IMG/VR virus record: IMGVR_UViG_3300012359_000039
Location: 1-35,095 of that record
DNA from: a virus
DNA length: 35,095 nt
Reading direction: 5' to 3' (one strand)
The notes beneath the pieces are model-generated. The model was not told where the DNA came from. It ran no database searches and saw only the letters and a program-made list of their open reading frames with translations. The position numbers and the translations under genes are program-made. Each line of letters begins with the position of its first letter. The first letter of the stretch is position 1. This document shows positions 13,211 to 27,740 of the stretch, piece by piece.

Positions 13211-13341
13211 GCGGTCCAGGGCTCCGGCGGCAGGCCCCGCTCGGCGGCGGCCAGCTCGAGCAGCTCGGTGAACAGCGGGGTGATGTTCGGCGGCGGCAGC
13301 GGGCCGGCGGTGATGTCGGCGGGCGGTGGTACGTTGGGCAT
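13207..13341 (-). CDS. Hypothetical Pro-rich protein, 44 aa
   Basis: ATG at 13341 with GGAAGG upstream is chosen over ATG 13356. This is the first gene of the minus-strand transfer-like operon, starting 177 bp from the divergent Nudix gene. The product (MPNVPPPADITAGPLPPPN...) is Pro-rich, with a C-terminal helix LFTELLELAAAERG. Confidence 0.55.
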   Translation of the reverse strand: MPNVPPPADITAGPLPPPNITPLFTELLELAAAERGLPPEPWTA

Positions 13342-13381
13342 TGCATGGCCTTCCATGGGGAATGGAACTGACGGTGAGGGC

Positions 13382-13408
13382 GGGTCCGGTGTTCGCAGCA
13401 CCGGGCCC
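13382..13408. terminator. GC-rich stem-loop between divergent operons
   Basis: GGGTCCGGTG pairs with CACCGGGCCC (one G-T pair) around a 7-base loop TTCGCAG, followed on the plus strand by GCTTTCGCG. It lies upstream of both divergent genes, so it could be a transcription attenuator in a leader rather than an end-of-operon terminator. Confidence 0.5.
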
Positions 13409-13468
13409 GCTTTCGCGTGCGGGGTGGGCCGTCTGGTCGTCCGCAGTGGTCATGCCGACCAACGTAAC

Positions 13469-13483
13469 CCATGTCTAACATGG
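13469..13483. promoter_or_regulatory. Inverted repeat operator candidate
   Basis: CCATGT and ACATGG flank a CTA spacer, perfect over 6+6 bases. It sits 35 bp before the Nudix start and just upstream of a -10-like TATGCT at 13504-13509, so a dimeric repressor bound here could control the plus-strand gene and possibly the divergent operon. The binding protein is unknown; the HTH part of the adjacent protein is one candidate. Confidence 0.5.
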
Positions 13484-13517
13484 ACGCAAGAGACCTGCTA
13501 CCTTATGCTGAGGCAGC

Positions 13518-14234
13518 ATGACGGGTTACGTGAAGGGCACCACCCCGGACGGCGAGATAGCGCACATGGACGAGTCGTTCTACCGGGCCACCAGCGCCAT
13601 CAGGGCGTGGCCGGATGTGGCTCAGGCCTGGGAATCAGCCAAGGCCCTCGCCAAGCTCGTCGAGAAGCTGCGCACCGAGACCGCGGATTTCCGCGACTGG
13701 CTCGCCGCCTACATGGCCGACGAGCGTGGCCTGACGCACGAGGAGCTGGCCGCGTTCATGGGCGTCACCCGGGCGGCGGTCAGCCAGAGGATCGCACGCG
13801 CACGAGAGAAGGGATATCCCGTGACCGAGCCAGCCACCCTGCCAGAGCAGCCCCACGTCGGGCTCGCCATCATCACGTCACCGGACCGGCACGTCCTGAT
13901 TGCCAAGCGGCGGGACGGCATCCCGCCGTGGACGTTCCTGGGCGGCGACATCCACGAGGGCGAGTCGGCGGGAGGCGCGCTGCGCCGCCGCGTCCAGGCC
14001 GAGAGCGGCCTGACGGTCGAGTCGTTCCAGTTCATCGGCAGGCGCATCCACCCGAAGACCAGCCGCGTGATGGTGTACTGCCATGTCGCCGTATCGGCGG
14101 GCGAACCGCAGGTCGGCGACCCAGAGGACCTGGAAGAGGTCCGGTGGGTCAGCATCGACGAGACGCGCGGCCTAATGCCGGACATGTACGGGCCGGTGCG
14201 GCAGTACCTCGACGAACTCCAGCGGGAGACGTAA
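13518..14234 (+). CDS. Pif-like HTH-Nudix protein with degenerate Nudix box, 238 aa
   Basis: ATG at 13518 has GAGG five bases upstream. Residues about 70-98 form a helix-turn-helix (GLTHEELAAFMGVTRAAVSQ) and 112-230 a Nudix fold. The Nudix box G143-X5-E149-X7-R157 is in place, but the usual REUXEE reads R157-R158-V-Q-A161-E162: two of the three metal-binding glutamates are replaced by Arg and Ala, so hydrolysis is doubtful. In the integrative element pSAM2, the Nudix-domain protein Pif gives immunity to transfer from other carriers. A similar exclusion or sensing role next to the transfer module is a reasonable inference. It might instead be a nucleotide-sensing regulator. Confidence 0.78.
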   Translation: MTGYVKGTTPDGEIAHMDESFYRATSAIRAWPDVAQAWESAKALAKLVEKLRTETADFRDWLAAYMADERGLTHEELAAFMGVTRAAVSQRIARAREKGYPVTEPATLPEQPHVGLAIITSPDRHVLIAKRRDGIPPWTFLGGDIHEGESAGGALRRRVQAESGLTVESFQFIGRRIHPKTSRVMVYCHVAVSAGEPQVGDPEDLEEVRWVSIDETRGLMPDMYGPVRQYLDELQRET

Positions 14235-14239
14235 AGACC

Positions 14240-14536
14240 ATGCCGGCGGCTACGGAATTCGTGCTCTATCGCGTCTGGGGTGAAGCGGGCCTCTTGCTCT
14301 ACGTCGGCGTTAGCAAGAACTTCGGCGCCCGCTGGAAACAGCATGCGAATATGCAGCCTTGGTGGAGTGAGATGCGGCAGCTAACGGCCGATGAGTGGTT
14401 CAGCTCCCGGGCCGATGCCGAAGCAGCAGAAAGGGCAGCCATCGGGGCGGAGCAGCCGAAGTACAACAAGCGGCAGGACACGGAAACGCCAGCCTCAATG
14501 CCCTTGGGGTGCATATGCGCATATACGCATGGTTAG
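14240..14536 (+). CDS. GIY-YIG-like nuclease domain protein, 98 aa
   Basis: ATG at 14240 follows GGGAGA by about 10 bases and starts 5 bases after the Nudix stop, so the two are co-transcribed. Y10 (FVLYRV) and Y21 (LLYVGVS) correspond to the GIY and YIG tyrosines, R31 (GARWKQH) to the conserved arginine, E64 to the metal-binding glutamate and N76 (KYN) to the closing asparagine. The spacing matches short stand-alone GIY-YIG proteins common in actinobacteria. The substrate is unknown; nicking or repair of phage DNA is possible. Confidence 0.72.
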   Translation: MPAATEFVLYRVWGEAGLLLYVGVSKNFGARWKQHANMQPWWSEMRQLTADEWFSSRADAEAAERAAIGAEQPKYNKRQDTETPASMPLGCICAYTHG

Positions 14537-15931: not shown

Positions 15932-16015
15932 GTACCGGGCATGTTACCAGGAAACAGCAGCTTAAACCGTGTCTCGTATATATCAGACTCACCTCTGGGG
16001 TGTGGAGAATATCTC

Positions 16016-22267: not shown

Positions 22268-22309
22268 GCCTGAATTACTGACCGGCCAAGGAGACAGGAC
22301 GAATGAGGA

Positions 22310-23164
22310 GTGGCACAAAACGCCGTCGACTGGGTGTGGAAGCATTCACGCGCTGTCAATGGCTCCCTCATCGTCCTGCTGGCTATAGCGCACGAAGCGA
22401 ATCGCGACGGGATTACCGCTATGAGCGTCCTGGAATTGTCACAGAAAACGCGACTGAGTGAGCGGTCAGTACAGAATGCGACCGCGGAACTCGTTCGCCA
22501 CCGCGAGCTTGCCATGCACCTGAAGGCTGGCGACCACGGCCGCAATGGCTACGAGGTGATCATTCCCAGGGGTGCAGATTCTGCACCCCTACCACCCGGT
22601 AGGGGTGCAGAATCTGCACCCCTACCACCCGGTAGGGGTGCAGAATCTGCACCCCTGGGCGTCACCCCGCAGAATCTGCACCCCGCAGAATCTGCACCCC
22701 TGGAGAGACATAACGGCAGGTCAGAGGGAAACCCCGCAGAATCTGCACCCCTGGAGATTTCCGACGTGTTTAAAACCAGTACAGGTATAGATGAGGTACA
22801 GGTTAAAGACGTGCCGGCGATCGCCTCGCGGCCTGACGTCGAGCGCCTCTGCGCCCGCCTCGCCGACCGCATCGAAGCCAACGGCTGCAAGCGCCCCGCA
22901 GTCGGCAAGAAATGGCGCGACGCCGCCCGGCTGATGATTGACCGCGACGGCCGCACCGAACAGCAGATTACCGCCGCAATTGACTGGTGCCAGGACAACG
23001 AATTCTGGCGCTCCAATATCCTCTCAATGCCTAAATTGCGGGAGAAATACGATCAGCTCCGTATGCAGGCCAGCCGCAAACCGGGAAATAACCGCCAGGC
23101 GGAAACGGACGAGCTATTCGGCGCGGCGATGAAGCGCGCCATTGCGAAAGAAGGCAGGAAATGA
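22310..23164 (+). CDS. Replication initiator / replisome organiser, 284 aa
   Basis: GTG at 22310 is the likely start; AAGGAG and AGGA lie 11-16 bases upstream. Residues 1-85 form a winged helix (GITAMSVLELSQKTRLSERS, VQNATAELVRH). Residues 87-148 are a repetitive linker (GAESAPLPPGR units) encoded by six palindromic iterons. Residues 155-284 form a helical C-terminal domain (RLCARLADRIEANG ... MPKLREKYDQLRMQ) of the type that recruits the helicase loader. N-terminal DNA-binding domain, origin inside the gene and a loader gene next door match lambda O and DnaD/replisome-organiser systems. The upstream region is less GC-saturated than its neighbours, hinting at separate ancestry. Confidence 0.8.
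   Translation: MAQNAVDWVWKHSRAVNGSLIVLLAIAHEANRDGITAMSVLELSQKTRLSERSVQNATAELVRHRELAMHLKAGDHGRNGYEVIIPRGADSAPLPPGRGAESAPLPPGRGAESAPLGVTPQNLHPAESAPLERHNGRSEGNPAESAPLEISDVFKTSTGIDEVQVKDVPAIASRPDVERLCARLADRIEANGCKRPAVGKKWRDAARLMIDRDGRTEQQITAAIDWCQDNEFWRSNILSMPKLREKYDQLRMQASRKPGNNRQAETDELFGAAMKRAIAKEGRK
22568..22751. repeat. Six iterons inside the initiator gene (candidate origin)
   Basis: Copies 1-3 (22568-22590, 22601-22623, 22634-22656) are perfect 23-base palindromes with arms AGGGGTGCAGA and TCTGCACCCCT around one base, exactly 33 bases apart. Copies 4-6 (22669-22684, 22685-22700, 22736-22751) carry the 16-base unit GCAGAATCTGCACCCC. Copies 4 and 5 abut, and copies 5 and 6 are both followed by TGGAGA. 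The regular spacing of about three helical turns would place initiator dimers on one face of the DNA. Confidence 0.85.
22757..22808. other. A+T-rich stretch after the iterons (unwinding element candidate)
   Basis: The coding sequence switches to TTTAAAACC, GTATAGATGAGG and GGTTAAAGA, far richer in A+T than anything nearby. Its position, immediately after the iteron block within the same gene, is where the melted region lies in the lambda origin. Confidence 0.6.
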
Positions 23165-23499
23165 CGCCGGCGGAGACCGTTATCCTCATCCGCTACGTCG
23201 CGGCCTGCTGCCCGCAGCAGAAGATCGACAGCTACACGCCCGACGCATGGCATGACCTGCTCGGCGATCTGGACCTAGCCGACTGCCGCGCCGCCGTAGC
23301 CGAGGTAGCCCGGTCGCGCCCGTTCATCGCGGCGTCAGACATCCGCACGCTGGTCGACCGGAAGAACGCGGGCAGCCTGCCGCACAGCGACGCGTGCCGC
23401 GGACGGAACTGCCGTGACTGCGTGTGGAGCTGGTGCCGCTGCACGTGCCACCACTACGCCATCGTGCGCGATGCCGACGCGCTGGCCATCGAGTCATGA
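23161..23499 (+). CDS. Helicase loader-like protein (G39P-like N-terminus), 112 aa
   Basis: ATG at 23161 overlaps the initiator stop (ATGA). The first 70 residues (TVILIRYVAACCPQQKIDSY, DAWHDLLGDLDLADC, then FIAASDIRTLV) follow the helical pattern of the G39P loader/inhibitor family, which delivers the replicative helicase. The C-terminus is Cys/His-rich (CRGRNCRDCVWSWCRCTCHH), probably a zinc site. Position right after the initiator supports the assignment; no ATPase motif is present, as in G39P. Confidence 0.68.
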   Translation: MTPAETVILIRYVAACCPQQKIDSYTPDAWHDLLGDLDLADCRAAVAEVARSRPFIAASDIRTLVDRKNAGSLPHSDACRGRNCRDCVWSWCRCTCHHYAIVRDADALAIES

Positions 23500-26455: not shown

Positions 26456-26582
26456 GCCCGCAACACTACCCAGGATGGACATGGCTGGTCTAGAGTGGAC
26501 TCCGGATGTCTCCATGTACCGTCAACGGTGGCGGGAGAACACGGGGGCCTGTCTCCGGGCCCCGGCAGAGGAGGGCGTGCGG

Positions 26583-26717
26583 ATGGACAGGCTGGTTTGC
26601 AGCGATCCCCCGGAGGAGTCGTGCTCTGACGCCGGCTGCCCGGTGCACGGCGACGATGACGTCAATTACGTTCACCACCTTCGCGACCCCGAAGGCGATG
26701 AGGCCGCCCATGCCTGA
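26583..26717 (+). CDS. Small Cys-containing protein, 44 aa
   Basis: ATG at 26583 with GAGGAGG about 8 bases upstream decides the start. LVCSDPPEESCSDAGCPVHG has three Cys and a His, a compact metal-binding signature, followed by an acidic tail. It overlaps the excisionase gene by 8 bases and is divergent from int. Confidence 0.58.
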   Translation: MDRLVCSDPPEESCSDAGCPVHGDDDVNYVHHLRDPEGDEAAHA

Positions 26718-26955
26718 GATTACCGACGTGGGCCCGGAGGCGCTCGACCTGCTGACGATGGCTGAGGTGGCCGGGCGGCTGAGGGTGTCGGAGAAGACGG
26801 TGCAGCGCATGATCCGGCAGGGCGTGTTCACGAAGCTGAAGGTCGGCGCCGGGGTCCGCATCGACCCGGCGCAGGTCATCGCCTACAAGCGGCGGCTGCA
26901 CGAGCAGGCGGCCGCCGCCGGGGAAGGTGCCGCGCCCCGGGATCCCGGGCGGTGA
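26710..26955 (+). CDS. xis: Excisionase-like MerR/BldC-type HTH protein, 81 aa
   Basis: ATG at 26710. Residues 12-60 (DLLTMAEVAGRLRVSEKTVQ, RMIRQGVFTKLKVGAGVRID) are a textbook excisionase-family winged helix; a helical tail follows. Such proteins bend attachment-site DNA and turn the integrase toward excision; some also repress int. It lies 0.6 kb from int in divergent orientation, consistent with reciprocal control. Confidence 0.85.
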   Translation: MPEITDVGPEALDLLTMAEVAGRLRVSEKTVQRMIRQGVFTKLKVGAGVRIDPAQVIAYKRRLHEQAAAAGEGAAPRDPGR

Positions 26956-26961
26956 CGCCGG

Positions 26962-27192
26962 GTGTCCAGGGGCAGCAGGCGGCAGCAGCAGGGGCAGCTG
27001 GCGGACATGTCGCTGCCGCCGGAGCTGCGGGGCCGGCGGGGCCGGGGGAGGCGGGGCCGGGGGAGGCGGCGCCGCAAGCGCATCGGCGGGACGCCCCCGG
27101 CGCAGATGGATCACGCGACGGGCGGGAAGGCCCGCAAGAGGCAGCGGGAAGGCGAGGCCGCGATGCGGCGGGGCCGGCGCGGTGAGCCATGA
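26962..27192 (+). CDS. Arg-rich basic protein, 76 aa
   Basis: GTG at 26962 is chosen because wobble positions in this frame are almost all G/C; the overlapping frame starting at 26952 is poorer. The middle is dominated by Arg and Gly (GRRGRGRRGRGRRRRKRIGG), so it should bind nucleic acid tightly, as small phage DNA-compaction or anti-host proteins do. It overlaps the methyltransferase start. Confidence 0.55.
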   Translation: MSRGSRRQQQGQLADMSLPPELRGRRGRGRRGRGRRRRKRIGGTPPAQMDHATGGKARKRQREGEAAMRRGRRGEP

Positions 27193-27740
27193 GCGCCCTC
27201 TTCCAGGTCACCGCCGCAGACGTGGCCAGCACGAATGACGAGTGGTACACCCCCCGGTGGATATTCGGCGCGGCCGGGCTCACTTTCGACCTGGACGTAT
27301 GCGCCCCGGTCGCACCCGAGTTCCGGACATGCCCGGCACGGCGGTACCTGACTGTGCTAGATGACGGTCTCACCGCGCCGTGGGACGGGCTGGTGTGGAT
27401 GAACCCGCCCTACAGCAACCCGGCCCCGTGGGTCGACCGGTTCATTAATCATCCGTCCGGGCTGGCACTAACCCCGGCATCAAATAGCCATTGGCGAGGA
27501 AGGTACGTCAGGGCTGCTGACGGCATCGCCCTGATATGCGTCAGCGGGAGCACGCGAAACAACAACTACGGCCCTAGCTGGAATCACGTAGGGTTCGGCA
27601 GGCCGGACGGCAGTCAGGTCAGCTATCCGACCGCCCTGATCCTGGCGGCACGGGGCGATCTGGCGCTAAGCGCGCTCGAACGGGTGGCGACAGTCGATCC
27701 GTACGCGGGCGGTGCCTGGTTTGTGCGGCCGGGCAGGTAA
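27189..27740 (+). CDS. Phage DNA N6-adenine methyltransferase (Dam-like), 183 aa
   Basis: ATG at 27189 overlaps the previous stop. DEWYTP (17-22), FDLDVCAP (33-40) and the catalytic NPPYSNPAPWVDRF (72-85) match the phage N6-adenine methyltransferase family, which uses S-adenosylmethionine and shields phage DNA from host restriction. No restriction enzyme partner is encoded nearby, so it is an orphan enzyme. It is last in the plus-strand run, before a stem-loop. Confidence 0.9.
   Translation: MSALFQVTAADVASTNDEWYTPRWIFGAAGLTFDLDVCAPVAPEFRTCPARRYLTVLDDGLTAPWDGLVWMNPPYSNPAPWVDRFINHPSGLALTPASNSHWRGRYVRAADGIALICVSGSTRNNNYGPSWNHVGFGRPDGSQVSYPTALILAARGDLALSALERVATVDPYAGGAWFVRPGR

Follow-up and report, generated by a model that had tools for sequence, protein, structure and literature searches.

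Does a gene for a phage replication initiator carry, within its own coding sequence, the origin at which its product acts? This question is raised by a locus in a 35,095-base virus record (the window, meaning the whole stretch of DNA analysed), where an array of repeats lies in the middle of an initiator-like gene and is followed directly by an A+T-rich stretch. A sequence-only reading had proposed a lambda O/P-like origin here, and the analysis supports that proposal, since iterons and then an A+T-rich stretch lie in the gene, its product has a lambda O-type C-terminal domain, and the next gene overlaps it by four bases. The locus thus very likely holds both the initiator of a phage that infects a high-G+C bacterium and the origin from which that phage replicates; an initiator complex on the six sites would open the A+T-rich stretch. 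By its composition and relatives, the host would be an actinobacterium. The features are the following.

22310..23164, + strand: initiator gene P0001, 284 aa, GTG start (ORF, PHROG matches, model).
22310..22558, + strand: predicted winged-helix DNA-binding domain, residues 1-83 (AlphaFold2 model, PHROG matches).
22460..22498, + strand: predicted recognition helix, residues 51-63 (helix H51-63 in the model; covariation with the operator).
22568..22590, no strand assigned: palindrome 1, 23 bases, core GCAGATTCTGC (repeat search).
22601..22623, no strand assigned: palindrome 2, 23 bases, core GCAGAATCTGC (repeat search).
22634..22656, no strand assigned: palindrome 3, 23 bases, core GCAGAATCTGC (repeat search).
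22669..22684, no strand assigned: iteron 4, 16-base unit, different frame, QNLHP (repeat search, translation).
22685..22700, no strand assigned: iteron 5, 16-base unit (repeat search).
22736..22751, no strand assigned: iteron 6, 16-base unit (repeat search).
22750..22814, no strand assigned: A+T-rich stretch, proposed unwinding element, directly 3' of the array (joint highest A+T 60-mers).
22832..23077, + strand: C-terminal helical domain, residues 175-256, lambda O-type/DnaD-like module (PHROG matches).
23161..23499, + strand: proposed helicase-loader gene P0002, 112 aa (model residues 1-70, 1no1 structural match).

Six iterons had been described from the sequence alone, three perfect 23-base palindromes 33 bases apart and three 16-base units, and both their coordinates and their description hold. 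The palindromes are odd-centred (AGGGGTGCAGAWTCTGCACCCCT, three copies, start-to-start distances of 33 and 33 bases), the 16-base unit GCAGAATCTGCACCCC occurs three times in the array, and the GCAGAWTCTGC cores start at 22574, 22607, 22640, 22669, 22685, and 22736, in the linker-coding part of P0001. With at most one mismatch, GCAGAATCTGC has 12 matches in the 35,095-base record (six sites on both strands), all within the array, versus 0.53 expected; none of 100 dinucleotide shuffles reached 12. Across the 33-base unit, copies 1 and 2 agree at 97%, and copy 3 has its 23-base part in common with them. Copies 1-3, 5, and 6 are translated as AESAP or ADSAP and copy 4 as QNLHP, identical DNA being read in two frames. 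Moreover, the palindromic-repeat score of P0001 is 24, versus at most 11 in 20 synonymous-codon shuffles that keep the protein, a computed sign of selection at the level of DNA. Upstream of the gene, an out-of-frame ATG at 22303, preceded by AAGGAG, lies 7 bases before the initiator GTG (ATGAGGAGTG, 22303-22312); it could be the start of a leader peptide or serve translational coupling, and the same ATG/GTG arrangement is present in L007, which at 66% identity is the closest relative once a near-identical contig is set aside.

The AlphaFold2 model of P0001, built from 38 sequences, has a confident winged helix at residues 5-83 with a recognition helix at 51-63, and a helical domain at 175-256. 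Block pLDDT is 80-97 over residues 1-90, and the linker, residues 84-173, is modelled at low confidence; this linker holds the iteron-coding part, in agreement with the claim that the array lies inside the linker-coding part of a winged-helix initiator gene. Residues 4-266 match phrog_391, "replication initiation O-like" (E 2.9e-34), and residues 1-88 alone also give PHROG matches. The C-terminal part matches phrog_22834 (E 5.1e-36), phrog_2514, "DnaD-like helicase loader" (E 8.8e-23), phrog_2357 (E 2.9e-17), and phrog_277 (E 8.6e-12), as well as phrog_4880, "replisome organizer", the kind of profile that the sequence-only reading had named for a search. Lambda O itself matches phrog_277, 2357, 391, 2514, and 22834, and the C-terminal domain of P0001 is therefore placed as a relative of lambda O. 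Judged by its sequence, the N-terminal domain is HTH_36-like and not the Phage_rep_O domain of lambda: HTH_36 (PF13730) scores 12.9 bits in P0001, below the gathering cut-off of 25, and is clear in six of six relatives scanned (40.6-53.4 bits), whereas PF04492 (Phage_rep_O) gives no match in P0001 at E 1 and matches lambda O at E 5.7e-36. PF06970 (RepA_N) likewise gives no match in P0001 at E 1. Against solved structures, the HTH profile finds general winged helices only, the best at E 3.7e-5 over 25 positions.

The initiator ORF (22310-23164) and the ATG-started ORF of P0002 (23161-23499) overlap by four bases. The claim that a G39P-like loader gene overlaps the end of the initiator gene stands for the overlap and for the predicted fold, which is that of 1no1, and fails for the family profile, since PF11417 (G39P) gave no match at E 1 among the 14 members of alignment A6, in which seven families were matched; P0002 has no match to a P-like PHROG either. 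Its model has a block pLDDT of 95-98 over residues 1-60 and 86 over residues 61-70, and its top Foldseek match is SPP1 G39P (1no1; E 0.09, probability 1.00, TM 0.81 on the target). The comparison by VIA gives Z 10.0 and rmsd 1.2 over 63 residues, in a range (Z below about 13 for helical bundles alone) that the program itself notes can be common or weak; the match is strengthened by its first rank in both programs, by coverage of approximately the whole 67-residue target, and by the genomic position. The second structural match is the lambda P-DnaB structure 9oa1 (Z 8.6, rmsd 4.8, 92 residues). The C-terminal tail of P0002 contains a Cys/His-rich motif, ACRGRNCRDCVWSWCRCTCH, which looks like a zinc site and has a similar form in L007, L017, L031, L064, and L101.

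The next gene was also compared in 16 loci. The next ORF aligns with P0002 (A6) in eight of them (L007, L008, L009, L010, L011, L238, L243, and L265), and in four (L241, L242, L245, and L246) we read it as a P-loop protein, probably an AAA+ loader. By the same reading of sequence, the next gene of L266 would be DnaB, the next ORF of L244 appears methylase-like, and L012 seems to have another ORF before its G39P-like gene; that of L267 is doubtful. Elsewhere in the window, an excisionase-like HTH protein (26506-26955, phrog_66) and a short DNA methyltransferase match (27189-27740, phrog_111) lie downstream of the replication genes, and a 422-aa ORF at 13268-14536 has an endonuclease-type C-terminal match (phrog_16880).

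Relatives chosen by protein place the array in a wider frame. From 244 genes listed, 230 were complete and at least 150 aa long, and dereplication left 124, namely 121 fetched by the HTH domain plus the window gene, L007, and L008; these three came from outside the HTH queries, and the patterns that found L007 and L008 included a linker peptide. Some of the HTH query patterns cover part of the recognition helix and none covers the linker; for A2 and A3 the query domains were themselves taken from loci that bear the motif, a choice biased towards relatives that share it, and some of the starting contigs came up again, as with L148, L208, and L237 (on the contigs of L014, L013, and L012). In this set, the mean de novo palindromic-repeat score is 8.9 in the linker, whereas the HTH part averages 3.7, the C-terminal part 3.7 (123 genes), and synonymous shuffles 4.0; 72 of the 124 genes score above all 20 of their own shuffles. 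The detector is conservative, because on lambda O it found only two of the four annotated iterons (1 and 3, with 2 and 4 missed). On the contrary side, palindromic repeats above shuffles are absent from six of eight named phages other than lambda, or from five of seven when only those with an HTH-profile match are counted. A strong operator, defined as odd-centred, with a score of at least 6 that is not below the best of 20 shuffles and with at least two sites, was found in 75 genes, and the remaining 49 of the 124 representatives have none so defined. The HTH profile was also present in 6 of 396 genomes of one phylum, loci that were left out of the analyses.

The A+T-rich stretch that had been noted right after the iterons is indeed among the most A+T-rich of the record: 60-mers starting at 22750-22755 are joint highest (0.58, versus a mean of 0.28), and the two others among the eight highest listed begin at 15978 and 15979. 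Across the 75 strong-operator genes, the A+T content of the 48 bases after the array exceeds the gene mean by 0.106, and the A+T maximum of the gene starts between -20 and +120 bases from the array end in 55, versus 14.75 expected. The cumulative GC skew dips at 20-21 kb, close to the array without coinciding with it, but is confounded by coding bias and was uninformative.

The main alternative is that the palindromes are binding sites of the protein for transcription control, through autoregulation or an intragenic roadblock, with the origin elsewhere. The best Foldseek matches of P0001 are MarR-like winged helices, many of them repressors, and in the relative L010, whose N-terminal domain is a different one, four TGTCGCGACA palindromes lie about the likely start of the gene and upstream of it (L010:2341-2437). 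However, the array of the window is intragenic, the A+T maximum comes after the array in the 55 of 75 genes mentioned above, the C-terminal domain and the neighbouring gene point to replication, and lambda has the same plan with a known origin. Control of transcription as the sole role of the sites is thus unlikely, and an origin within the gene is the preferred reading.

The operator was also sought directly in DNA. A scan of viral contigs for two GCAGAWTCTGC cores 5-35 bases apart returned at least 119 stretches, whereas a control palindrome of the same composition gave 14 in a complete scan. An HTH-initiator ORF lies over the array in at least 93 viral stretches (93 of 119 among the matches listed), versus 0 of 14 for the control; the profile for these ORFs was built from HTH domains only, and its training genes share some contigs with the motif stretches. 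The HTH profile gave no match in 26 of the 119 stretches among the matches listed. In the HTH-positive genes, at least 93, the copies fall in frames 0, 1, and 2 in numbers of 187, 23, and 78, two or more frames are used in 59 of 93 genes, and the loci span a G+C content of 0.35-0.72 (all among the matches listed). The same DNA is translated as AESAP, QNLHP, or RICTP in different copies and phages.

If the palindromes are bound by the protein that their gene encodes, their sequence should follow its recognition helix, and this is what the 75 strong-operator genes display; weak-operator genes are unrepresented in this test, since it took strong-operator genes only. The partial Mantel correlation between operator and recognition-helix distance, given the rest of the domain, is 0.487, a value reached in 0 of 2000 permutations (largest 0.178), although permutations keep some effects of descent; that between operator and the rest of the domain, given the helix, is 0.039. 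Among all 13-residue blocks, the best is 47-59 (0.519). A contrary result comes from per-column mutual information, in which position 55 ranks first but only 5 of the 14 top columns are in the helix region (55, 54, 47, 56, and 49); we put down to descent the nine that lie outside it. Thus, the operator tracks the recognition helix and hardly the rest of the domain, and the palindromes are very probably binding sites of the initiator itself.

Arg-G and hydrophobic-T contacts are textbook chemistry, and single residue-base pairs can be read in the family, where positions 50, 51, 54, and 55 correspond to E51, R52, Q55, and N56 of P0001. In the HTH-chosen strong-operator set, Arg at position 51 is paired with G at base 3 of the half-site (70 of 72 cases); at position 50, Glu is paired with C at base 4 (51 of 53) and Asp with A (8 of 8); and Arg at position 54 is paired with G at base 2 (21 of 24). 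Outside this set, D50 with A appears again in Microcystis phage Mvi-Yong1342-1 (helix KSDRTCQ, half-site CCGAAGC). The DNA-selected genes, picked by the core and not by the flanking base, have G in the flank in 101 of 112 half-sites with R54 and in 34 of 364 with Q54, and T in 84 of 84 with Ile, Tyr, Val, His, or Thr at 54, among the matches listed, these half-sites being mutually dependent. Counted per distinct helix, the majority base is G for 7 of 8 helices with R54 and, as an exception to the code, for 3 of 37 with Q54; another exception is D50 with GCAGA, in 2 of 61 distinct helices (among the matches listed). When helices shared with the HTH-selected set are dropped, 39 are left among the matches listed, of which the majority base is G in 6 of 7 with R54 and 3 of 16 with Q54, and T in 13 of 13 with Ile, Tyr, Val, His, or Thr. 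The window is consistent with the code, with Q55 of P0001 at family position 54 and T or C beside the core.

Prediction is of modest power. In a leave-one-out comparison restricted to genes whose rest of the domain is less than 0.5 identical, the nearest neighbours by helix give 4.18 of six bases, versus 3.35 for the nearest neighbours by the rest of the domain and 3.04 for any gene; below 0.45, the values are 3.63, 2.98, and 3.05. The nearest helix predicts all six bases correctly in 0 to 11% of cases.

The reader and its site also seem to move together. BLAST clusters of the C-terminal parts of the 75 genes form 11 groups, five of them with 44, 13, 5, 4, and 3 members and six with one each; four of the groups include half-sites ending in GCAGA, so that one reader-and-site module appears joined to different ends. 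PHROGs labelled O-like, primosomal, DnaD-like, or replication protein are matched by nine of the ten C-terminal parts that were scanned, the tenth being without a match. Conversely, among seven loci (one partial) that have a related C-terminal domain and another N-terminal domain, a clustered palindromic array is found in L010 only; it seems, therefore, that the HTH domain, rather than the C-terminal domain, carries the embedded site along. L011 and L267 score slightly above their own shuffles with scattered sites, and the palindromic repeats of L009, L265, L266, and L411 are not above shuffles. The linker of L010 holds repeated GTCCAGGAGCTGGAC-like units, and at the corresponding position in the gene of L007 (3258-3470) the operator has become CCCCGCAGATCCTGCGGGG and GCAGGATCTGC.

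A shared GCAGAWTCTGC operator might instead reflect the recent spread of one linker segment and not selection for binding, in keeping with phage mosaicism and with the occurrence of GCAGA-ending half-sites in four C-terminal clusters. This is highly improbable, as the 25 strong genes with this operator have as little as 19% and a median of 46% identity in the domain outside residues 44-62, and the HTH-positive motif loci span the G+C range and the different frames given above (among the matches listed). Selection of the repeats as peptide, a flexible AESAP linker whose DNA palindrome would be a by-product of tandem duplication, could draw on the near identity of copies 1 and 2, on the 23-base part of copy 3, and on the low-confidence linker model, as in disordered linkers; it has the slimmest of chances, because one DNA sequence is read as three peptides across copies and phages, a spread over frames that a peptide-level repeat cannot explain, synonymous shuffles abolish the signal, and the DNA tracks the recognition helix. 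RNA hairpins, acting by attenuation or termination inside the mRNA of the initiator, are scarcely credible as well. Each palindrome could form an RNA stem, but covariation of operator and helix, including Arg-G and Ile/Tyr/Val-T, is unexpected of RNA structure. The peptide-only, RNA-hairpin, and simple-duplication readings were accordingly set aside on frames, synonymous shuffles, and helix covariation.

For the preferred reading, an origin inside the initiator gene, we infer the following course of events. A dimer of the N-terminal winged helix would bind each palindrome, with the half-site GTGCAGA read by E51, R52, Q55, and N56 of the recognition helix. On the six sites, several such dimers could then form an O-some-like complex that would strain and open the A+T-rich stretch at 22750-22814, while the lambda O-type C-terminal domain would recruit the G39P-like loader encoded by the next gene. 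This loader would deliver the DnaB helicase of the host, and replication of the phage would start from the palindromes.

Origins inside an initiator gene are already known from lambda, SPP1, and pSK41. Lambda O and ori-lambda have the same plan, with inverted-repeat iterons in the middle of the initiator gene and an adjoining A+T-rich region; each iteron holds an 18-bp inverted repeat (PMC6022878), so that the contrast once drawn between full palindromes here and simple repeats there falls away, and each is bound by a dimer (PMC7466680). The C-terminal domain families and the loader gene overlapping by four bases are shared as well, whereas the N-terminal domain (HTH_36-like here, PF04492 in lambda) and the operator differ, and the loader has no P-like PHROG match, even though 9oa1 is its second structural match. 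In SPP1, oriL lies inside gene 38, with origin repeats and an A+T-rich region, and gp39, whose structure the model of the window loader matches, is the helicase loader (PMC6316719); its sites are described as direct repeats, in contrast to the palindromes here. The RepA_N initiator of pSK41 also binds, through a winged-helix N-terminal domain, Rep boxes in the linker-coding middle of its own gene; in contrast, its C-terminal domain contacts primase (PMC5703833), and P0001 has no PF06970 match. Pseudomonas phage MD8 gp56 is an HTH_36 initiator, and its authors mention repeats within the O-like gene (PMC8508860), although the palindromic detector finds no array above shuffles there.

A precedent for covariation comes from the RepA_N initiators of PLE satellites of Vibrio cholerae, in which DNA-binding domain and origin covary as a module, as here, and the C-terminal domain is conserved (PMC8263062). 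Those replicons have two origin groups and an intergenic origin, whereas here there are many operators, they lie inside the gene, and single residue-base pairs can be read. That paper also reports on a T5orf172 nuclease whose DNA-binding domain is initiator-like (PMC8263062); in Sphingopyxis phage VSN-002 (L408:1175-1504), a T5orf172-domain gene lies between a DnaB-like helicase and the HTH initiator.

What is new is the tandem motif over related initiators in at least 93 viral stretches, with a shared operator and a residue-by-base code, of which no description was found in open PMC papers. HTH_36-type phage initiators probably make up a family with many genes that contain the binding site of their own product, with a code readable from sequence (R51-G, E50-C or D50-A, R54-G, Ile/Tyr/Val54-T, Gln54-T/C) and with an operator, GCAGAWTCTGC, that phages differing widely in G+C have in common and that is combined with different C-terminal helicase-recruiting modules. 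At least 93 viral stretches follow the in-gene plan of an origin with a single operator, and many relatives follow it with different ones. Because one gene both encodes the reader and contains its site, recombination leaves the two linked, and this linkage provides a natural data set for the winged-helix recognition code. With such a code, it could become possible to call replication origins from the sequence of a phage, making origin specificity and cross-interference between phages directly testable and, if true, it would predict which phages cross-activate or interfere at each other's origins.
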